Shown: in pieces, positions 3,026 to 23,888 of the stretch
Layout: each line of letters starts with the position of its first letter
Position numbering within the stretch: the first letter of the stretch is position 1
From: Marinicella litoralis
GTDB taxonomy: Bacteria > Pseudomonadota > Gammaproteobacteria > Xanthomonadales > Marinicellaceae
Assembly: GCF_002591915.1 (NCBI RefSeq)
Contig: NZ_NIHB01000001.1
Span: forward strand, 783,805 to 847,804
Reading direction: 5' to 3'
Length of the DNA: 64,000 bases
Position numbers and translations under genes: made by a program
Notes under the pieces: model-generated
What the model saw: the letters and a program-made list of their open reading frames with translations, nothing else
Databases searched by the model: none
What the model was told of the DNA's origin: nothing

Positions 3026-5161
3026 ATGTTAGTCAGTTTACATTACAAAAATAATTTGAAAGTATTGGCACCCATTATTGCTTGGATTGCATTCATTGTC
3101 AGTGTGTACATGCCGTATTTGGTTTACCGAGTGAATCATGCTTACTATGCAGAGACATTCCTGCATCTGGTGTTACCAATCGTGATTTTTGTTTTGCCAT
3201 TCATGCTGTGTATTTTGTTGATAACGGCATTTATGCCAAAGAAGATGATGGCATATTTTTCATCGATGTTAACAATGTGTGCGATATTGCTTTGGCTTCA
3301 GGGTGATCTTTTTTCGATCAGTTATGGGCAAATTGATGGCGCCGGAATGTTATTTTATCCTCATGAGATTCGGGGTTTGGTAGAAATTCTTGTGTTAAGT
3401 GCCTGTTTGATTATTGCCGTGCTGTTTCGTAAAAAGCTCAATCGGATCAGCCCAACCTTAATCACTTTGATATTCATTGCACAATTAGGCATAGTTGGTT
3501 ATGGTGTTTTGGCTGATAATAAACAACCCATTAAGCCCAAACAATCAATTGAAGACAGGATTGATGAGGAAATTTTTGCATTTTCATCTGAAGACAATGT
3601 TGTTGTGATTGTTTTGGATGCTTTTGGCAGTGAATTTTTTCAAACAATGCTGCAACAAAATAATGAATTGAGTCATCAGCTTCAAGGCTTTGTCAGTTAT
3701 ACCGATGCCATCAGTCAATATCCGCAAACCAAGAGCAGCTTACCTTCATTCCTTACCGGTAAAATGGTGCCTGAAAATGTTCGGTATGCTGATTATTTGA
3801 GTGGCACAGTGGCAGCGGATGGCATGCCAAAATACTTTGAACAACAAGGTTATGCGGTCAGTGTTATATCGACTGCATTTGTTTGGTTCAATGAATTTTA
3901 TCGAAACAGGTTTCTGTATCGAGTACCGGGTCCGGGCAAACCTGCTTTTTATTCATCAGATTCTATGAAATTACTAGATTATGGCTTGTTCAGAATGTCG
4001 CTGCAGGTGACCAAGCATCATGTTTACAACGGCGGGTTCTGGTTGGTTTCTGATTACATGAGTGGATACAATCGCATACCAGATATCTATCCAACCAGGG
4101 CTGCAGCAATGATGGATTATTACCCAACAAAGTTACATGTGTCAGATGCCAATCCTCGATTTAAATTGATTCATTTTGTACTGCCACACCCTAAATTTGT
4201 GTACAAGCAAAATTGTGAATTCCAATCAAACATTGAATATTCAAATGATGCCATGTTGCAACAGTCTTATTGCACAATGAAGAAGTTATTGGCATTGTTT
4301 GAAGTGATGAAACAATACAATGTCTATGACAACTCATTGCTGGTGGTGATGTCTGATCATGGCGCCAGGATGTTTGATACGCGAGATGAAACAGGAATGC
4401 CGTCAGAATTCGAATTGAAATCATCTGGTATATTGTTAATGATAAAAGATCAGCATGCCACTGGCCAACTGGTACAGGATAACACGCCAGTTTCTTTGAT
4501 AGGTGTCAGTCGTCAATTGAAACAGCTGCTTTCACAAGCTGGCACTGTCAGGTTGAAGCCGGAAAATGAACGACTTTATTATTCATACCGTTCAGACATA
4601 GGGTCAACCAAAGCGAATATTCCAGATGGCGTTGTTTATCAGGTTGAACCAAATTACAGTGAACCGACCAGTTGGCATGCCCTTAAAACTTCAGTCAGTC
4701 ACTGCCCTGCTGTTGAAGTATTGGGGCGTGTTAATCTCGATCAGACCCAAACCGCTTCATATTGTTATAAGTATGGCTTCAATGATTTTTCTGAATCCCT
4801 AGGTGGGCTGGAATTGGTGGGCAGTGGAGGCATCATTGTGTGGCAAACCAATTCGCTTGCAAAACCACAGCTGGGTAATGATTATGAGTTAACAGTGAGC
4901 ATAGAAAGCAACCATGAAATCAGTGCTTTTCTGCAAATCAACAGTGACCAGTCAACAGCTCAAGAATTGACGTATCGTGCAGAAGAGGAATTGTTTACTG
5001 TCCAACTCAATGACTCTATATTTGAAAGCAACACCAAATTAGAATTGTTTTTCAATAAGTCATCTAAGAGAAGGTCGAATGGCAACCCAACCATGGCAGA
5101 TGATACGACTGAATCTGGTCAGGTTGTGATTAAATCAATAGAAATAACAAAAATTAATTGA
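3026..5161 (+). CDS. Membrane-anchored sulfatase/alkaline-phosphatase-fold protein (LTA-synthase-like)
   Basis: 711 residues. Five N-terminal membrane segments lie at about 12-34, 45-69, 73-92, 117-134 and 143-163, followed by a large periplasmic domain. NVVVIVLDAF places a metal-binding Asp at about 198, and QYPQTKSSLPSFLTG holds the expected Thr nucleophile near 235; LPHPKF and VVMSDHGARM supply the later metal ligands. This architecture fits phosphoglycerol or phosphoethanolamine transferases and related sulfatase-fold enzymes acting on envelope glycans. A beta-rich C-terminal extension follows the catalytic domain. An upstream ATG at 3006 stops after eight codons, so 3026 is the start. 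The transferred group is unknown. Confidence 0.75.
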   Translation: MLVSLHYKNNLKVLAPIIAWIAFIVSVYMPYLVYRVNHAYYAETFLHLVLPIVIFVLPFMLCILLITAFMPKKMMAYFSSMLTMCAILLWLQGDLFSISYGQIDGAGMLFYPHEIRGLVEILVLSACLIIAVLFRKKLNRISPTLITLIFIAQLGIVGYGVLADNKQPIKPKQSIEDRIDEEIFAFSSEDNVVVIVLDAFGSEFFQTMLQQNNELSHQLQGFVSYTDAISQYPQTKSSLPSFLTGKMVPENVRYADYLSGTVAADGMPKYFEQQGYAVSVISTAFVWFNEFYRNRFLYRVPGPGKPAFYSSDSMKLLDYGLFRMSLQVTKHHVYNGGFWLVSDYMSGYNRIPDIYPTRAAAMMDYYPTKLHVSDANPRFKLIHFVLPHPKFVYKQNCEFQSNIEYSNDAMLQQSYCTMKKLLALFEVMKQYNVYDNSLLVVMSDHGARMFDTRDETGMPSEFELKSSGILLMIKDQHATGQLVQDNTPVSLIGVSRQLKQLLSQAGTVRLKPENERLYYSYRSDIGSTKANIPDGVVYQVEPNYSEPTSWHALKTSVSHCPAVEVLGRVNLDQTQTASYCYKYGFNDFSESLGGLELVGSGGIIVWQTNSLAKPQLGNDYELTVSIESNHEISAFLQINSDQSTAQELTYRAEEELFTVQLNDSIFESNTKLELFFNKSSKRRSNGNPTMADDTTESGQVVIKSIEITKIN

Positions 5162-11167: not shown

Positions 11168-11383
11168 ATGAATAAATTATTTAATATTTTGATTTTAATT
11201 TTGTTGCCTACAGTCAGTTTTGCATACATTGATCCAGGCTCCGGCAGTGCAATTATGTCTGCAATCATCGGCTTTTTTGTTGCCATTGGATTGGCCGTTA
11301 AAACTTATTGGTATAAGTTGAAGTCGTTTTTTGTTAAAAGTAAAAAGCATGATAAGCAAGATCAGAATGATGCAGAAGATTAA
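11168..11383 (+). CDS. Small membrane protein with YIDPGSGS motif
   Basis: 71 residues. The N-terminal hydrophobic segment ends in VSFA followed by YIDPGSGSAIMS, so it is either a cleaved signal peptide or a first membrane helix. A second helix (AIIGFFVAIGLAVKTYWY) is followed by a basic stretch and a charged KHDKQDQNDAED tail. I recall the YIDPGSGS start from short proteins encoded near surface-polymer genes, but I know no assigned function. It heads the operon with its own candidate promoter and is followed 15 bp later by a methyltransferase. Its small size and two helices make it a reasonable client for the YidC encoded three genes downstream (inference). Confidence 0.75.
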   Translation: MNKLFNILILILLPTVSFAYIDPGSGSAIMSAIIGFFVAIGLAVKTYWYKLKSFFVKSKKHDKQDQNDAED

Positions 11384-11398
11384 TTAAAAGGAATTTTC

Positions 11399-12061
11399 AT
11401 GACTGAAAAAAACATTGATTACAACAAACAATATTGGAATGAATTTTACAAGAATAACCACAAGTTAACCCCATCGCAATTTTGTGTCAGTGTACTGACT
11501 GAATTGGCTGATCAAACGTGTTTGGTTGAATTAGGCAGTGGTAATGGCAGAGATTCATTTTATTTTTCAAGCCAAGGGTTTGTGACCGTAGCCATGGACT
11601 TGTCAAAACAAGCCATTGAAAGTTGTAAGCAACAAGCCACCCAAAGAAAAATCAAGCATGCTTCATTTTATCAAGGTGATCTGACTTCGAGCAGCGATGT
11701 AGGTCATGTCATTGCAAAGGCCAGAACAGACAAAAAAGAAGGTGGGGACATGGCATTTTATTCCCGATTTGTGATGCATTCATTGGACGATGAGCAAGAA
11801 CAAGCCTTTTTAGGCATTTTATCTGAACAGGTCTTGTCGGGTGAAAAGGTCTATTTTGAATTCAGGTCTAAAGAAGATGAAAACTTGGACAAGCATTTTG
11901 GTAATCACTACAGAAGGTATGTTGACACTGCTGTGTTCAAACAAAGGCTTGATGCCGCTGGCTTTGAATTGGAATATGAAGTGATTGGACAAGGAATGGC
12001 CAAATACAAAGAAGAAGACCCTTTTGTGGCCAGGTTTATCGCCAGAAAAGTAAACAATTGA
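11399..12061 (+). CDS. Class I SAM-dependent methyltransferase
   Basis: 220 residues. LVELGSGNGRDSFYF (about 40-55) is SAM motif I with the glycine-rich loop, and VAMDLSKQAIESCK is motif II with the ribose-binding Asp; MAFYSRFVMHSL marks the motif IV region. The N-terminal YNKQYWNEFYKNN resembles TehB/methyltransf_11-type small-molecule methyltransferases. An AAAGGAATTTTC ribosome-binding site precedes the ATG. Its place between the YIDPGSGS protein and a polyol-phosphate transferase suggests methylation of a sugar, nucleotide or polymer end, but no substrate can be assigned. Confidence 0.75.
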   Translation: MTEKNIDYNKQYWNEFYKNNHKLTPSQFCVSVLTELADQTCLVELGSGNGRDSFYFSSQGFVTVAMDLSKQAIESCKQQATQRKIKHASFYQGDLTSSSDVGHVIAKARTDKKEGGDMAFYSRFVMHSLDDEQEQAFLGILSEQVLSGEKVYFEFRSKEDENLDKHFGNHYRRYVDTAVFKQRLDAAGFELEYEVIGQGMAKYKEEDPFVARFIARKVNN

Positions 12062-12083
12062 TTGTTTGAATCTGGAATAAATA

Positions 12084-13235
12084 ATGAAATTTTTCAAGCA
12101 CCTGAAAAATGTAATTGCTTTCAATCAACTTGATGTCAAGAACCGTCAAATCGTTTTTTATTCAGAAGGTAAAAATTACTGGGTACACTTAAAGGGCTTG
12201 GTGGAAAAGCTGTTAGAGCAAGGCCAGACCGGTGTTTGTTATGTCAGCTCTGGAGCCAATGATCCCGGCTTAGCGGTCGAACATGAAAATTACCACAGTT
12301 TTTTAATTGATGAAGGTTGGGTAAGGAATTGGTGGTTTGAAAATTTAAAAGCTGATTTATTGGTATTGAGCATGCCTGACATTCATCAATACCAAGTTAA
12401 ACGGTCCAAGTTTCCAGTACATTATGTTTATGTTCAACACTCTCTGGTCAGTAAACACATGGTTTATCGAAAGGGTGCTTTTGATTATTATGATTCAATT
12501 TTCTGTGCCGGACCACACCACATCAAAGAAATCAAAGCCATAGAGTCCTTGTATAAATTGCCTGAAAAAGCGTTGTATAAACATGGTTATTCAAGACTGG
12601 ATTCAATCATAAAAAATGCATCGAGAAGGCCAAACAAAACAACACCTGACAATCAAAACCATGTGCTGATTGCACCTTCATGGGGGCAAGTTAATGTGGT
12701 TGAGGAATTTGGGCTGCAAATAGTTGAAGACTTGTTAAACAATGGCTTCAAAGTCACATTGAGACCACACCCACAAACCATTAAATTTTCACAGGCTAAA
12801 GTGGCAGAGATTGTTGCTCAGTTTAAGCATGATTCAAATTTTAGTTTTGAAGGCTCGGTGGATGGTGAACAATCATTGCATCAATCAGATGTGATGATCA
12901 GTGATTGGTCTGGAGCCGCATTGGATTACGCCTTTGGCTTGGGCAAACCGGTGTTATTTATTGATGTTCCAAGAAAGGTTAATAACGCAGAATATGAGAA
13001 AATTGACATCATTCCATTTGAAGATTCAATAAGAACTCAAATTGGTGAAGTGATGCCGTTGCATGAAGTGGCCAATGTCTCAAAATGGATCCGTCAATGT
13101 TTAGCTAAAAAGTCAGCAACGGGTTTTGACCACGGTATTTACAATGTGGGCTGTTCTGATCAAGTTGGTGCAGACCTGATTGTAGAAATTTTAGAAAAAG
13201 TTCAACAGGCCAAATCAATGGATTCAAATGCATAA
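12084..13235 (+). CDS. CDP-glycerol glycerophosphotransferase-like (TagB/TagF family)
   Basis: 383 residues with a GT-B-like architecture. Family motifs are HYVYVQHSL (about 112-120), the catalytic-type histidine in TLRPHPQTIK (about 228), and the C-terminal SDWSGAALDYAFGLGKPVLFID region that binds the CDP-polyol donor. Family members transfer glycerol phosphate or ribitol phosphate from a CDP donor to build teichoic-acid or capsule backbones. It lacks the long N-terminal extension of TagF polymerases, so it could be a primase or single-addition enzyme. No tagD/CDP-glycerol synthase is in the window. The last eight bases overlap the yidC-like gene, implying coupled translation. Confidence 0.8.
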   Translation: MKFFKHLKNVIAFNQLDVKNRQIVFYSEGKNYWVHLKGLVEKLLEQGQTGVCYVSSGANDPGLAVEHENYHSFLIDEGWVRNWWFENLKADLLVLSMPDIHQYQVKRSKFPVHYVYVQHSLVSKHMVYRKGAFDYYDSIFCAGPHHIKEIKAIESLYKLPEKALYKHGYSRLDSIIKNASRRPNKTTPDNQNHVLIAPSWGQVNVVEEFGLQIVEDLLNNGFKVTLRPHPQTIKFSQAKVAEIVAQFKHDSNFSFEGSVDGEQSLHQSDVMISDWSGAALDYAFGLGKPVLFIDVPRKVNNAEYEKIDIIPFEDSIRTQIGEVMPLHEVANVSKWIRQCLAKKSATGFDHGIYNVGCSDQVGADLIVEILEKVQQAKSMDSNA

Positions 13236-14349
13236 ATTCAGTTGTTTGATGTTTGTTTTGATGGCTGTTATGGGAACTCCCGTGCTGCAGGCCAAAGCCA
13301 TTAATTTGCCAACTAACAACCAAGAACTGAACCAAGTCATCAGCACTCAAGTGGTTGAAACCTACGAATTTTCAGGAATGGCGCTGTACCTTAATCAAGT
13401 GTCTTTTTTTGCCTACCAGCAAAATCAACTGAGTCAGTTGGATGGAGAAAATTTTGAAAGTGAAGTTGAATCCATAGAACAAATTATTGTTGTCGGGCGC
13501 TTCAATGCGATGATTATCGATATAAATCGCAGCAGCCTAAGCATCCGTAATGGTCAGCTGAACATTGATGACTATCCTGCAGCGGTAAATGGAGTCAGTG
13601 TTTATCATAAAAAAGAATTGGCAAACCTGAATCCAGCCTATAAATCCATCAGGTATCATCATTTGTGGTGGCCACTGGCGCAACTGTCAATATTTTTTGA
13701 ATCAGTACTGGAAATCCTGGGCAGTTGGGTTAATCAACATTGGGGCTGGGCCATATTTATATTTGCAGCATTGGTTAAAATTGTATTTATTCCGCTGTCA
13801 ATAGTCACCAGAAAGGTACAGGCACAGGTCAATAAAATTCAAGGTGTTTTGGATCCCGAGTTGAAATTAATCAAAACGCAATTTGATGGTGAACAAGCAC
13901 ACCTTAAAATCATGGCCGCACATAAAAAGCATGGCGTGTCACCGTTCTATACCATGAAACCCTTATTGATGACATTGATTCAAATTCCATTTCTGATTGC
14001 GATTTTCAATACATTGGGTGAAATGCACGAGTTAAAAGGTGCTGGTTTTTTATGGGTGTCAGACCTTTCATTACCAGACAGGCTATTTAGTTTAGGCTTT
14101 GCCATTCCAATGTTTGGTGATTGGTTTAATCTGTTTCCCTTTTTAATGACAGGTATTACACTCTTGACGACAGTAAAGTATGGCGATGATTCATTGCCAG
14201 AGTCACTTGTCAAAAACCAACGTCGCAGGTTGTATTTAATGGCAGTGGTGTTTTTTATATTGTTTTATCCATTTCCTGCAGCCATGGTGATGTATTGGGC
14301 GTTGGCTAATTTTTGGCAGTTTTTTATTTCAAGAGTTTTTCTTAATTAA
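13228..14349 (+). CDS. YidC/Oxa1-family membrane protein insertase paralogue
   Basis: 373 residues, much shorter than housekeeping gammaproteobacterial YidC (about 550). A signal peptide (MHKFSCLMFVLMAVM...LQAKA) is followed by a small periplasmic region to about 145, not the large beta-supersandwich P1 domain. The conserved Oxa1 core runs from about 150 to 373 with five hydrophobic segments, LKIMAAHKKHGVSPFYTMKP and LLMTLIQIPFLIAIFNTL. The groove position normally held by Arg (ALVKIVFIPL, residue 184) is Lys. It overlaps the TagB-like gene by eight bases, so it looks dedicated to this polymer cluster rather than general membrane insertion (inference). Confidence 0.85.
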   Translation: MHKFSCLMFVLMAVMGTPVLQAKAINLPTNNQELNQVISTQVVETYEFSGMALYLNQVSFFAYQQNQLSQLDGENFESEVESIEQIIVVGRFNAMIIDINRSSLSIRNGQLNIDDYPAAVNGVSVYHKKELANLNPAYKSIRYHHLWWPLAQLSIFFESVLEILGSWVNQHWGWAIFIFAALVKIVFIPLSIVTRKVQAQVNKIQGVLDPELKLIKTQFDGEQAHLKIMAAHKKHGVSPFYTMKPLLMTLIQIPFLIAIFNTLGEMHELKGAGFLWVSDLSLPDRLFSLGFAIPMFGDWFNLFPFLMTGITLLTTVKYGDDSLPESLVKNQRRRLYLMAVVFFILFYPFPAAMVMYWALANFWQFFISRVFLN

Positions 14350-16115: not shown

Positions 16116-17525
16116 ATGCTTTTTAACAGTGTCTCATTCTTTGTTTTCTTATTTTTTGTTTTAATTATCAGTGCCGTATTGAGGCGATATTCAGCAAAAA
16201 GCGAACTGTGGTTTTTGGTTTTAGCAAGCGCTTTCTTTTATGGTCAGTGGAGTTGGAAATACCTAATACTCATTTACACCACTATATGTGTTGATTACCT
16301 GTTAGGGCTCAGGTATTACAAAAGTGAACATCCGCAAAAGTATTTAACCATCAGCTTATGTGTCAACTTAGGCATATTGAGCCTATTCAAGTATTTTAAT
16401 TTTTTAATGGATTCTGTCAATCAAGTCATCGAGGTGAGTGGATTTGATTATCATTTTTCAGCCATAGAAGTATTGTTGCCTGTGGGTATCTCTTTTTATA
16501 CCTTTCAAAGCATGAGCTATATGATTGATATTCACCGCCAAACACTTAAGCCGCGGAAAAATTTTGTTGACTATGCATTGTTTGTCTCATTTTTCCCGCA
16601 GTTGGTTGCTGGACCGATTGTTCGTGCCTCTGAGTTTTTTAAGCAATTGGATGAAAAAAGGCATTTCAGCTTTAAAATGGCTCAAGCAGGAACCCTTTTA
16701 ATTGTTGTTGGTTTAGTCAAAAAAGTGGTGTTTGCGGATAATCTAGCTTTGTTTGTCGATCCGATTTTTAACCAACCAGAGAATTATTCGGGTCTTATGA
16801 CGCTTTTGGCCGTTTATGGATTTGCTTTTCAAATATACTTTGATTTTTCAGGGTACACAGATATTGCCATCGGTGTTGCCAAGTTGTTAGGATTTAATTT
16901 TCCCCGAAATTTCATGCATCCTTATGTGTCATTATCCATTAGAGATTTCTGGCGCCGTTGGCATATGACATTATCACGCTGGCTAAGGGATTATCTTTAT
17001 ATCAGTTTAGGCGGTAACAGACAGGGTACTTACAAAACGGCGCGTAATCTATTTCTAACCATGTTTTTAGGTGGGCTTTGGCACGGTGCTTCCTGGAACT
17101 TCGCTATTTGGGGTGTATTACATGGGGTATATTTATCTATAGAACGGTTCAATGATCATTACAAGTTGATACGATTAAATCCCGATAATAAGCTGGTGCG
17201 TTTAATTCAGTGGTTTTGGGTTTTTCACTTAGTGTGTTTTGCATGGATATTTTTTAGGGCTGAAAATTTTAAGGACAGTGCCATAATCTTAAACAATATT
17301 GTTTTTTGGAAAAGCCATGTAGGCATGACTTCTAGCGCTGTGCTTTACATGGCATTTATCATGTTTTGTCCACTTTTGCACTGGTTCAGTTCACGCTTTG
17401 ATGTATCAAAGAATGCCGGAAACTTAGGTGCGTCAAAGTATGTTTGTCTACAGGTGGTTTTGCTGTTTCTGTTAATCTTTTTCAGCACCCAGCAGTCTGA
17501 TTCTTTTATCTACTTTCAATTCTAA
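16116..17525 (+). CDS. MBOAT-family O-acyltransferase (AlgI-like)
   Basis: 469 residues with about ten to twelve membrane segments. VSFFPQLVAGPIVRA, RDFWRRWHMTLSRWLRDYLY and the catalytic-His region GGLWHGASWNFAIWGVLHG are hallmarks of AlgI/DltB/PatA-type MBOAT proteins, which pass an acyl group, usually acetyl, across the inner membrane. Length matches AlgI. The next gene starts one base after its stop and encodes an SGNH-type periplasmic protein, the usual partner that places the acyl group on the polymer. Confidence 0.88.
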   Translation: MLFNSVSFFVFLFFVLIISAVLRRYSAKSELWFLVLASAFFYGQWSWKYLILIYTTICVDYLLGLRYYKSEHPQKYLTISLCVNLGILSLFKYFNFLMDSVNQVIEVSGFDYHFSAIEVLLPVGISFYTFQSMSYMIDIHRQTLKPRKNFVDYALFVSFFPQLVAGPIVRASEFFKQLDEKRHFSFKMAQAGTLLIVVGLVKKVVFADNLALFVDPIFNQPENYSGLMTLLAVYGFAFQIYFDFSGYTDIAIGVAKLLGFNFPRNFMHPYVSLSIRDFWRRWHMTLSRWLRDYLYISLGGNRQGTYKTARNLFLTMFLGGLWHGASWNFAIWGVLHGVYLSIERFNDHYKLIRLNPDNKLVRLIQWFWVFHLVCFAWIFFRAENFKDSAIILNNIVFWKSHVGMTSSAVLYMAFIMFCPLLHWFSSRFDVSKNAGNLGASKYVCLQVVLLFLLIFFSTQQSDSFIYFQF

Positions 17526-17526
17526 T

Positions 17527-18645
17527 ATGATTAAATTTTTTTTACATAAAAAGTTTTGGTTGCCAATGATAATTATTTTGTTGATGTTTTTGGTGCTGGA
17601 GCTTTTGTTGAGAATGGGGGTATACAATCCATTATTAAAGCCCACTTCTTATCTGGGTAGTTCCTATGAACGACTGGCCGCATTAAAAGATTTTGGCCTT
17701 AATGACATAGACTGGATAACAACCGGTGATTCAAGAATTGATTGGGGTATTAACCATGAAAAACTCAGGCAAGCACAAAAACAAAGGGGGGTGAATCATC
17801 TCAGAATGTCATTTGGTGGTGCCGATTTTATGGTTTTACAATCGTTAATTGACTGGTCAATCAAACACATGGATTCATTGGATGGTGTGGTACTTGGGGT
17901 ATCAGAACATAAATTAACAAATAACAGTACATTCACAAAATTATATCCTATCGCTTGGCCTTTCAGGGAATCGCTTAATTTCGAGCGGTATAATATTATG
18001 CCGGCTGATTTAAAAAGAAGGCGACACTATTACGGGCTTGCTGTGGTGAACTATATAAGTGACATTAAAGATTTCATCACAAATCCTCTTGATCGGATAA
18101 AAGAACTTAAAAAAGCGCAACAACAAAAACCTGTGAATATTTTCGATTACAACAATAAGCTAGTGGGTGATTTATGCGCCTATAGCCTTGATTCACCAGA
18201 GTCTTGTATCCAAACAGCAAAGCAATTAATGAACAAAAAGCCCATACCATCTGGCTTTAAGTCGCCTGTTAGGTTATGTGGTGCGCCTAACGCCAAGTTG
18301 CGCATAAATTCAAACAGAACCACTGCACCCATTAAAGATAAAAGGCGGCTGATCAATGGATGGCGTTCTCTGATTAGGGGTGTGCTTAATAAAGACAAAA
18401 AACTGTTATTTGTTTTATTGCCTGATCATGAAATGTATAACTATTTATTGAAACCTAAAAACGCGCATCAGATAACAAAACAAATTATAGCGCCGTTTAA
18501 AAGCAATCCAAACTTTATGCTTTTGGATCTCAGGGAGTTTATTCCGCAGCAAGAACAATGTAAATATTATAACGACCCATTACACCTTAATGATAAAGGT
18601 GGGCGTTTGCTGACGAAGAAAGTCATTCAAAAGCTCATCAATTAA
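17527..18645 (+). CDS. Membrane-anchored SGNH-hydrolase-like acetyltransferase partner
   Basis: 372 residues with one N-terminal membrane anchor (about 10-31). ITTGDSRIDWG (about 64-74) gives the nucleophilic Ser of a GDS motif and the C-terminal NDPLHLNDKGG supplies the Asp-x-x-His pair, as in AlgX/AlgJ/PatB/DltD-like proteins. The catalytic domain faces the periplasm. Tight spacing with the MBOAT gene supports a two-protein O-acetylation unit. I could not assign it to a named subfamily, and the central part (about 150-290) lacks recognised motifs. Confidence 0.7.
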   Translation: MIKFFLHKKFWLPMIIILLMFLVLELLLRMGVYNPLLKPTSYLGSSYERLAALKDFGLNDIDWITTGDSRIDWGINHEKLRQAQKQRGVNHLRMSFGGADFMVLQSLIDWSIKHMDSLDGVVLGVSEHKLTNNSTFTKLYPIAWPFRESLNFERYNIMPADLKRRRHYYGLAVVNYISDIKDFITNPLDRIKELKKAQQQKPVNIFDYNNKLVGDLCAYSLDSPESCIQTAKQLMNKKPIPSGFKSPVRLCGAPNAKLRINSNRTTAPIKDKRRLINGWRSLIRGVLNKDKKLLFVLLPDHEMYNYLLKPKNAHQITKQIIAPFKSNPNFMLLDLREFIPQQEQCKYYNDPLHLNDKGGRLLTKKVIQKLIN

Positions 18646-22553: not shown

Positions 22554-23888
22554 ATGATGAGTCATTGGTTTAAGTTTTTCCAACAGAAGGACCGGAAACC
22601 AGCATGTTATTTTGCTCACATTCCAAAAACAGCAGGCACCAGTTTTATTGTTTTGTTGGATCGATTTTATCAAGCCAATCAGATATACCCACATCAATTG
22701 TGGCGAGATGCTGGATGCATTGATGTCGTTGATAACAATAAATACAGGTTGTATCGAGGGCATTTTGGCGGGGGTGGTGTAGACGTATTGACTGATCGTC
22801 CATTGACTTATTTAACCATTTTGAGAAATCCGCATTCATTGGCATTGTCTACGTATCAATTTGTTAAACGGGAAAGTAACACCAAAGTCCATCAATTGTT
22901 GAATGAACTTAACATGAGTTTTTCAGATTTTCTTGGGCACCCGATGACTCAGCCTTTGGTACAAAACCGAATGGTGAGGAACCTGTCTTTTGACTTCAAA
23001 AAAGACCCAGCAGCTCAAGAAGTGTTTCTATCGGCTGAAACCATTGAATACTTACAACCCATTATTCAAAATCACAATAAACCCATTTCAGAATCAAAGC
23101 GATTACAACGTGCCAAAGCATTTATAAAACGATGTCATTGGTTTGGTTTGTTGGAACGGTTTGAGGAGTCATTACAGTTGCTGTGTTATCAGATGCATTG
23201 GCCACCATTCGGACAAACCCAGAAGCTCAATACGCACAACAATAAAATTGAGTTCAAAGATCAGGAAATGTCGTTACTGAGCAAAGTCAATCAACAGGAC
23301 AGTGAATTGTATGCATTTTCTGAAGCTGTTTTTGTAAAAAAAGTACAGCAGATGAAGCACGGTTTACAACGATTCATGTCGCAACCTGGTCAGGGCATTG
23401 ATGAATTATTGGATTTGTCTTATCAGCATCATCATGCAAAAAAAGTAGCCAATAGTTTAAATGTAAGTTTTAAATATGGCTTTGATCAAATTTTGTTGGG
23501 CAATCAGTGGCATCGACGAGAATTGATGCATCCTGAAAATGAGTACTTCAGATGGACTGGCCCTGGAACAACTTCAAGTATTGATTTTTGGTTAAAGCCA
23601 CAAAATTATGACATCAGTATACGGGTTATAAACGCAACTTCAATTGACGTTTTGAATCAACTACTCATTGAAATTAACGGTCAGCAGGTCGATTGGCAAA
23701 CCAGTGATACGGGTGTGGTAAGGATACTGCAGTTAAGCTGTCCTGAAGTTTACATAAAAGACAATGGCTTGCTAAGATTGACAATGACTTGTCATTCCAT
23801 GATCAGTCATCAAGAGGCATTTGATTCAGATGATGAAAGGCTTGTTGGATTGGCCGTTCATTGGATACAATTTAAACATGTCAGTTGA
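22554..23888 (+). CDS. Sulfotransferase-like protein with extra C-terminal domain
   Basis: 444 residues. ACYFAHIPKTAGTSFIVLL (about 19-37) is a PAPS 5'-phosphosulfate loop and LTYLTILRNPHSLALSTYQF the 3'-phosphate motif, as in Sulfotransfer_2 enzymes. From about residue 290 a second, probably beta-rich domain appears (KYGFDQILLGNQWHRRE...YFRWTGPGTTSSIDFWL), not part of the sulfotransferase core; it could recognise glycan. A second ATG at 22557 is an equally possible start. It overlaps the third sulfotransferase gene by 11 bases. Confidence 0.72.
   Translation: MMSHWFKFFQQKDRKPACYFAHIPKTAGTSFIVLLDRFYQANQIYPHQLWRDAGCIDVVDNNKYRLYRGHFGGGGVDVLTDRPLTYLTILRNPHSLALSTYQFVKRESNTKVHQLLNELNMSFSDFLGHPMTQPLVQNRMVRNLSFDFKKDPAAQEVFLSAETIEYLQPIIQNHNKPISESKRLQRAKAFIKRCHWFGLLERFEESLQLLCYQMHWPPFGQTQKLNTHNNKIEFKDQEMSLLSKVNQQDSELYAFSEAVFVKKVQQMKHGLQRFMSQPGQGIDELLDLSYQHHHAKKVANSLNVSFKYGFDQILLGNQWHRRELMHPENEYFRWTGPGTTSSIDFWLKPQNYDISIRVINATSIDVLNQLLIEINGQQVDWQTSDTGVVRILQLSCPEVYIKDNGLLRLTMTCHSMISHQEAFDSDDERLVGLAVHWIQFKHVS

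Follow-up and report, generated by a model that had tools for sequence, protein, structure and literature searches.

A second YidC recurs beside a TagB-like transferase and a small YIDPGSGS protein in a putative phosphorus-tailoring system of the bacterial envelope

We analysed a 64,000-nucleotide stretch of the Marinicella litoralis genome (NZ_NIHB01000001.1, positions 783,805 to 847,804 of the forward strand; hereafter the window), in which four adjacent genes encode a small YIDPGSGS protein, a methyltransferase, a TagB-like transferase and a paralogue of YidC, here named YidC2. As a whole, these genes are best explained as the core of a patchily inherited system that tailors the cell envelope, an explanation to which we assign a probability of about 0.5. 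One component of it is likely, namely that the system handles phosphorus groups linked to CMP or CDP and that the small protein is the partner of TagB. That YidC2 acts where a lipid crosses the membrane or is presented is a more tentative assignment. What can be read from the sequences directly is a conserved unit, donor-synthesis cassettes beside it, two kinds of fusion, the paralogy of YidC2 and its co-inheritance with TagB.

All four core open reading frames are intact, and their coordinates bear out the gene order and the eight-base overlap between the TagB-like and YidC2 frames given in a preliminary description of this DNA. The features are as follows.

11168..11383, + strand: small YIDPGSGS protein, 71 aa, no Pfam family
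11225..11248, + strand: YIDPGSGS motif, residues 20-27, directly C-terminal to an AxA-type signal peptidase site
11399..12061, + strand: class I S-adenosylmethionine methyltransferase, 220 aa, Methyltransf_31/25 above cut-off (Pfam)
12084..13235, + strand: TagB-like transferase, 383 aa, PF04464, with RPHP and SDWSG motifs (Pfam, alignments)
13228..14349, + strand: YidC2, a YidC/Oxa1 paralogue, 373 aa, with a small periplasmic domain and a five-helix core (Pfam/NCBIfam, model)
13777..13779, + strand: codon of Lys184 of YidC2, the basic residue at the groove position, equivalent to Arg366 of Escherichia coli YidC (alignment)
3026..5161, + strand: membrane enzyme of the alkaline phosphatase (AP) superfamily, 711 aa, Sulfatase PF00884, candidate periplasmic transferase of the module (Pfam, alignment)

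The TagB-like protein scored 38.7 bits against Glyphos_transf (PF04464, cut-off 22.1), and its RPHP and SDxSG motifs are kept across the aligned relatives; a TagB profile found no match among PDB sequences. YidC2 scored 97.4 bits against PF02096 (60KD_IMP, cut-off 35) and 105.4 against TIGR03592 (cut-off 84.3).

When the TagB protein was searched in 60 relatives, eight further genomes matched. All TagB-bearing genomes among them also carry YidC2 and the small protein, with YidC2 directly after TagB in seven of the eight and an AP-superfamily gene between the two in the eighth (G041). Two others (G057 and G058) have YidC2 and the small protein and no TagB match. Furthermore, a scan of named genomes with a TagB alignment, blind to YidC and the small protein, yielded 80 loci, 78 of them usable. 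Of the 78, 56 have YidC within three genes of TagB, 66 have a YIDPGxGS protein (43 separate, 23 fused to TagB), and 51 have both the small protein and YidC (within five genes), several of the loci scored as missing partners being contig ends. With roughly two YidC per about 3000 genes, chance would bring one to within three genes of TagB at far fewer than 1% of loci; recurrence in most of 78 loci not chosen for YidC therefore argues that the linkage is not accidental. The loci span Gammaproteobacteria, Alphaproteobacteria, Bacteroidota, Fibrobacterota, Spirochaetota, Acidobacteriota and Thermodesulfobacteriota. Many come from metagenome assemblies, and mis-binning is possible for phyla represented by a single genome (Acidobacteriota, L051; Dadabacteria, L029); such loci recur in Bacteroidota, Fibrobacterota and Pseudomonadota. 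The earlier proposal that YidC, TagB and the YIDPGSGS protein are a conserved unit thus holds over many genera and phyla, and the restriction to close relatives that had been named beforehand as counting against it was not seen.

A common history of the two larger proteins is also reflected in their pairwise distances. Across 25 genomes from which TagB, YidC2 and a canonical YidC were all available, TagB and YidC2 distances correlate with r 0.87, and the partial r, controlling for canonical YidC, is 0.79, a value reached by none of 5000 permutations; in the 20 stand-alone forms the partial r is 0.76. Judged by these distances, TagB and YidC2 are co-inherited. Carriage of the module by plasmids or viruses was considered and rejected, as no TagB relative was found in plasmid or viral collections and the plasmid YidC matches are ordinary YidCs.

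The genes beside the core indicate which chemistry is involved. A hydroxyethylphosphonate type (20/78 loci) has a phosphoenolpyruvate (PEP) mutase with fused cytidylyltransferase, a phosphonopyruvate decarboxylase and an iron-containing alcohol dehydrogenase, and an aminoethylphosphonate (AEP) type (18/78) has a PEP mutase-nucleotidyltransferase, a decarboxylase and an AEP transaminase. A phosphoramidate type (13/78) encodes a glutamine-kinase-like PRK05849 protein, a LicC-like cytidylyltransferase and a protein of amidotransferase fold for which gamma-glutamyl-CDP-amidate hydrolase is the best-scoring family. Cassette scores reached 399 bits for PEP mutase (cut-off 319.6), 481 for the decarboxylase (cut-off 312.5) and 970 for PRK05849. 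A lone methyltransferase occupies this slot in seven loci and in the window, the phosphonate importer PhnD/C/E replaces the cassette in four, and 16 have no cassette, methyltransferase or importer within five genes. In the TagB tree, the window protein, of the methyltransferase type, nests among the phosphoramidate and phosphonate types, and the pilT-side site in the window's genus holds a phosphoramidate cassette in four congeners. The nesting and the shared site indicate a constant core in which the donor part is swapped.

These donor genes bear on a further explanation, a teichoic-acid-like polymer made from CDP-glycerol in which YidC2 is a passenger of a polysaccharide locus. Such a polymer would agree with the PF04464 match and with the polymer genes and Wzm/Wzt in the window. 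However, the linkage recurs over many phyla in varied surroundings, with rearranged gene order in L025, L038 and L041, and the cassettes that could be typed are for phosphonate or phosphoramidate; no glycerol-phosphate (TagD-type) cytidylyltransferase cassette was seen among the neighbouring genes typed. We therefore regard this explanation as very improbable. The preliminary description had tied the unit to surface chemistry, which the cassettes support, and had called it CDP-glycerol-type, a label that finds no support in the relatives' donor genes, which are for CMP-phosphonates or a phosphoramidate.

Several arrangements around the donor slot are observations in their own right. The phosphoramidate cassette was detected outside Campylobacter in congeners of the window organism (L018-L021) and in Vibrio hepatarius (L028, 1000-5395), and several of these loci have a formyltransferase-like 450-residue gene after YidC2. 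In three alphaproteobacterial loci (L044-L046), PhnD/PhnC/PhnE directly precede the TagB-like gene with no YidC2 nearby, and in L044 and L046 a YLDPGTGS protein lies on the opposite strand. In one methyltransferase-type genome (L050; G339:C45), the contig with YidC2 also encodes a PEP mutase (401 bits), at a distance of about 72 kb.

The small protein has a signal peptide ending in ...VSFA, a mature N terminus YIDPGSGS, one span and a basic cytoplasmic tail. Nearly all separate copies have a signal-peptidase-like site just ahead of the motif, which would place the start of the mature protein at or near the motif. The motif itself drifts (YLDPGTGS, YLDPSTGS, YIDPASTS), which made a DNA pattern for YIDPGSGS too strict, with three matches in 274 genomes of the class. 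TagB itself begins with a YIDPxSxS span in Bacteroidales, one spirochaete and a few others, and in the fused Bacteroidales forms a few residues precede the motif. This fusion suggests a topology with the motif outside, one span and TagB inside, and makes the separate protein most simply the anchor or partner of TagB. Hence, as far as sequences allow, the small protein looks like TagB's membrane anchor and not a special client of YidC2. The client role proposed for it at first does not fit the 23 fusions to TagB, nor the strong homologues in G049 and G047, genomes with canonical YidC only.

Two related settings of the small protein stand apart from the module. In L173-L178 the neighbours of a YIGPGAG variant are a type I phosphodiesterase (PF01663) and a sulfotransferase-like gene, and YidC2 is missing; this context is related yet separate. 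In L166, L169, L170 and L172 the small protein and an AP-superfamily enzyme are accompanied by a protein of 465-490 residues that starts GSFRDRDG and matches methyltransferases weakly; L169 adds a YidC of 638 residues to this set.

In the window's genome, a canonical YidC (561 aa) is encoded at a distance of about 550 kb, which makes the yidC of the window a true paralogue and confirms the earlier remark on a second YidC within a surface-polymer operon. A canonical YidC accompanies YidC2 in nearly all genomes tested, and in a tree the canonical proteins form one fully supported group separate from YidC2; the YidC2 part is long-branched and gives no verdict on a single origin of fused and stand-alone forms. 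An AlphaFold2 model of YidC2 (mean pLDDT 92) predicts a beta domain at about residues 23-135 followed by a five-helix Oxa1 core; among solved structures it resembles E. coli YidC (6al2, E 1.3e-12) and Bacillus halodurans YidC (3wo6, TMt 0.71). The periplasmic domain is about 110-120 residues and does not amount to a large Gram-negative P1, a domain that is not defining for the wider YidC/Oxa1/Alb3 family; the model thus agrees with the earlier description of a P1 cut to about 120 residues with the Oxa1 core kept. The groove-position residue is Lys or Arg in 28 of 28 canonical YidCs from the genomes sampled. Most stand-alone YidC2, the window's with Lys184 among them, have Lys there; L028 and a stand-alone Lysobacterales group have Asn or Gly, and the fused forms have Ser or Asn throughout. 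A groove Lys as hallmark of YidC2 was rejected, as most of the canonical YidCs sampled also have it.

YidC2 itself is fused in the same lineages as TagB. The fused protein has about 1000 residues, with YidC at 1-215, about ten predicted helices at 227-604 and an AP-superfamily domain at 636-1024; the model reaches a pTM of 0.55, at which domain placement is not reliable. Thr680, Asn636, Asp643 and Asp904-His905-Gly906 are invariant in all 16 fused proteins, each of which has a Thr nucleophile with Asp and Asp-His ligands and no CxPSR sulfatase motif (residues were taken from alignments; pattern-based motif counts pick the wrong site in some rows). The nearest solved folds of the AP domain are PbgA, MCR-1, sulfatases and LtaS. 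Stand-alone AP-superfamily enzymes lie between TagB and YidC2 in many gammaproteobacteria. In the window, the nearest gene of this kind is 3026-5161, whose product has the same Thr and metal-ligand pattern and whose homologues lie directly upstream of the small-protein gene in congeners. With YidC fused to the AP enzyme and the small protein to TagB, YidC2 looks like the partner of the periplasmic enzyme.

The fusions also bear on two other roles for YidC2. It could be an insertase or chaperone dedicated to one membrane component of the module, either the small protein or the multi-span AP enzyme, and this is possible, although we lean against it. The YidC fold is kept, as is the groove Lys in the window, which speaks for this role especially in the window type. 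All 11 YidC2-bearing genomes among 61 relatives also carry the small protein, whose signal-span-basic-tail layout is that of M13 procoat, a YidC-only client (PMC7618853). On the other hand, small-protein homologues occur with canonical YidC alone (G049, G047), the fusions join the small protein to TagB and YidC to the AP enzyme, never to each other, and the basic groove residue is gone from all fused and several stand-alone YidC2; moreover, fusion in cis to a single enzyme would leave an insertase a very narrow task. Alternatively, the YidC2 domain could move nothing and act as a scaffold that docks the AP enzyme and TagB with the small protein at one membrane site. Fusions, loss of the groove charge and co-inheritance would all be compatible with docking, yet the Pro, Gly, Asp and Trp columns of the Oxa1 core are conserved between YidC2 and canonical YidC beyond the need of a bare scaffold, and we consider this role quite improbable.

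For the envelope-tailoring system as a whole we propose the following sequence of events. The YIDPGSGS single-span protein would hold the cytoplasmic TagB-like transferase at the inner membrane, where TagB may move a small phosphorus group from a cytidine nucleotide to a membrane carrier. In relatives this group would be hydroxyethylphosphonate, aminoethylphosphonate or phosphoramidate, and in the window the methyltransferase may make or alter the donor. YidC2, together with the AP-superfamily enzyme on the outer face, would most likely aid the passage of the loaded carrier across the membrane, and the AP enzyme could then shift the group from the carrier to a surface glycan. What we infer in this sequence is the membrane carrier and its crossing, the glycan as last acceptor and, for the window, the donor. 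YidC2 is favoured as an aid to crossing because scrambling of phospholipids in vitro has been shown for E. coli YidC and for other Oxa1 proteins as well (PMC10491306), and a review (PMC7618853) raises it as a possible role. A stronger version, in which YidC2 has left protein insertion and become the subunit of a phosphonate or phosphoramidate transferase that moves the lipid or headgroup across, with the Bacteroidales YidC-AP fusions as a single-chain flip-and-transfer enzyme, seems rather unlikely. The proposal retains the conserved trio and the surface chemistry of the first interpretation and drops its CDP-glycerol donor and the small protein as client.

Several observations weigh against this proposal. 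The window holds no donor-synthesis gene. In its genome the best PEP mutase match (TIGR02320) has 117.8 bits against a cut-off of 319.55, which relatives L031 and L061 and the L050 genome exceed, and the module of the window was therefore rejected as a direct phosphonate producer. The best gamma-glutamyl-CDP-amidate hydrolase match (NF045546) in the genome, 43.6 bits, is at the level of generic amidotransferases; those of the congeners reach 149-157 bits, themselves below the 250-bit cut-off. The methyltransferase-type genomes tested have no strong amidate hydrolase and, except for L050's, no PEP mutase above cut-off. The PDB relatives of the methyltransferase are generic, weak matches that give no clue to its substrate; as a guess, the window could use a one-gene route in which, for instance, the transferred phosphate or a cytidine diphosphate is methylated. 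Furthermore, the AP enzymes beside most AEP cassettes are YejM-like, and YejM may be non-catalytic. Several loci combine TagB and the small protein with no YidC2 nearby, which indicates that YidC2 is not indispensable, and the YidC2 of the window, with its groove Lys and good YidC fold, may still insert proteins.

Parts of the module resemble known systems. Phosphonyl tailoring (Pnt) clusters, predicted to put AEP on cell surfaces via CMP-phosphonate with later steps termed enigmatic (Rice et al. 2019, PMC6697681), share the PEP mutase, with the nucleotidyltransferase fused or adjacent, Ppd and the AEP transaminase. That paper names LicD-like and glycosyl transferases, and its text is without YidC or a glycerophosphotransferase, whereas here the cassette is followed by a TagB-like enzyme with YIDPGxGS anchor, an AP-superfamily enzyme and YidC2; the window, unlike Pnt clusters, has no phosphonate genes. 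With the O-methyl phosphoramidate capsule pathway of Campylobacter jejuni the module shares glutamine-kinase-like and gamma-glutamyl-CDP-amidate hydrolase-like enzymes and a cytidylyltransferase. This modification was known solely in Campylobacter according to a 2019 review (PMC6429109), whereas the cassette described here stands ahead of TagB and YidC2 in Marinicella, Vibrio and others, and is absent from the window's genome. YidC2 has the Oxa1 core, predicted fold and domain families of YidC/Oxa1 insertases, including the Gram-positive YidC1/YidC2 pairs; it differs in its reduced or absent P1, its linkage or fusion to envelope-modification enzymes, its presence in addition to a canonical YidC and, in many members, the missing groove charge. 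The fused protein is like EptA/MCR, LtaS and PbgA/YejM in partner-domain fold and position of the conserved Thr nucleophile, and adds an N-terminal YidC domain and about ten membrane helices. In the open-access literature, with subscription papers outside the search, we found no account that places a YidC in loci for phosphonates or phosphoramidates or in those of TagB type. An unexpected part for YidC in tailoring the surface with phosphorus may therefore be new, although an earlier account is possible.

The route of CMP-activated phosphonates to the bacterial surface is an open step, for which the module supplies candidate enzymes in several phyla. Marine methane production and the cycling of phosphorus draw on surface phosphonates. 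In addition, a Campylobacter-like phosphoramidate cassette is more widespread than Campylobacter itself, and the module, with its hints of an insertion machine reused for surface chemistry, offers a natural test of the YidC fold as a lipid mover.

In the window, the core operon belongs to a larger polymer region with an MBOAT acyltransferase, sulfotransferases, Wzm/Wzt and glycosyltransferases. Within a glycosyltransferase operon, 22554-23888 encodes a 444-residue protein without Pfam family, and the matching operon of L019 has three paralogues of it at 29-48% identity. At 16116-18645 the MBOAT acyltransferase is followed by a 372-residue protein, also without Pfam family, which is probably its SGNH/AlgX-like acetyl-transfer partner.

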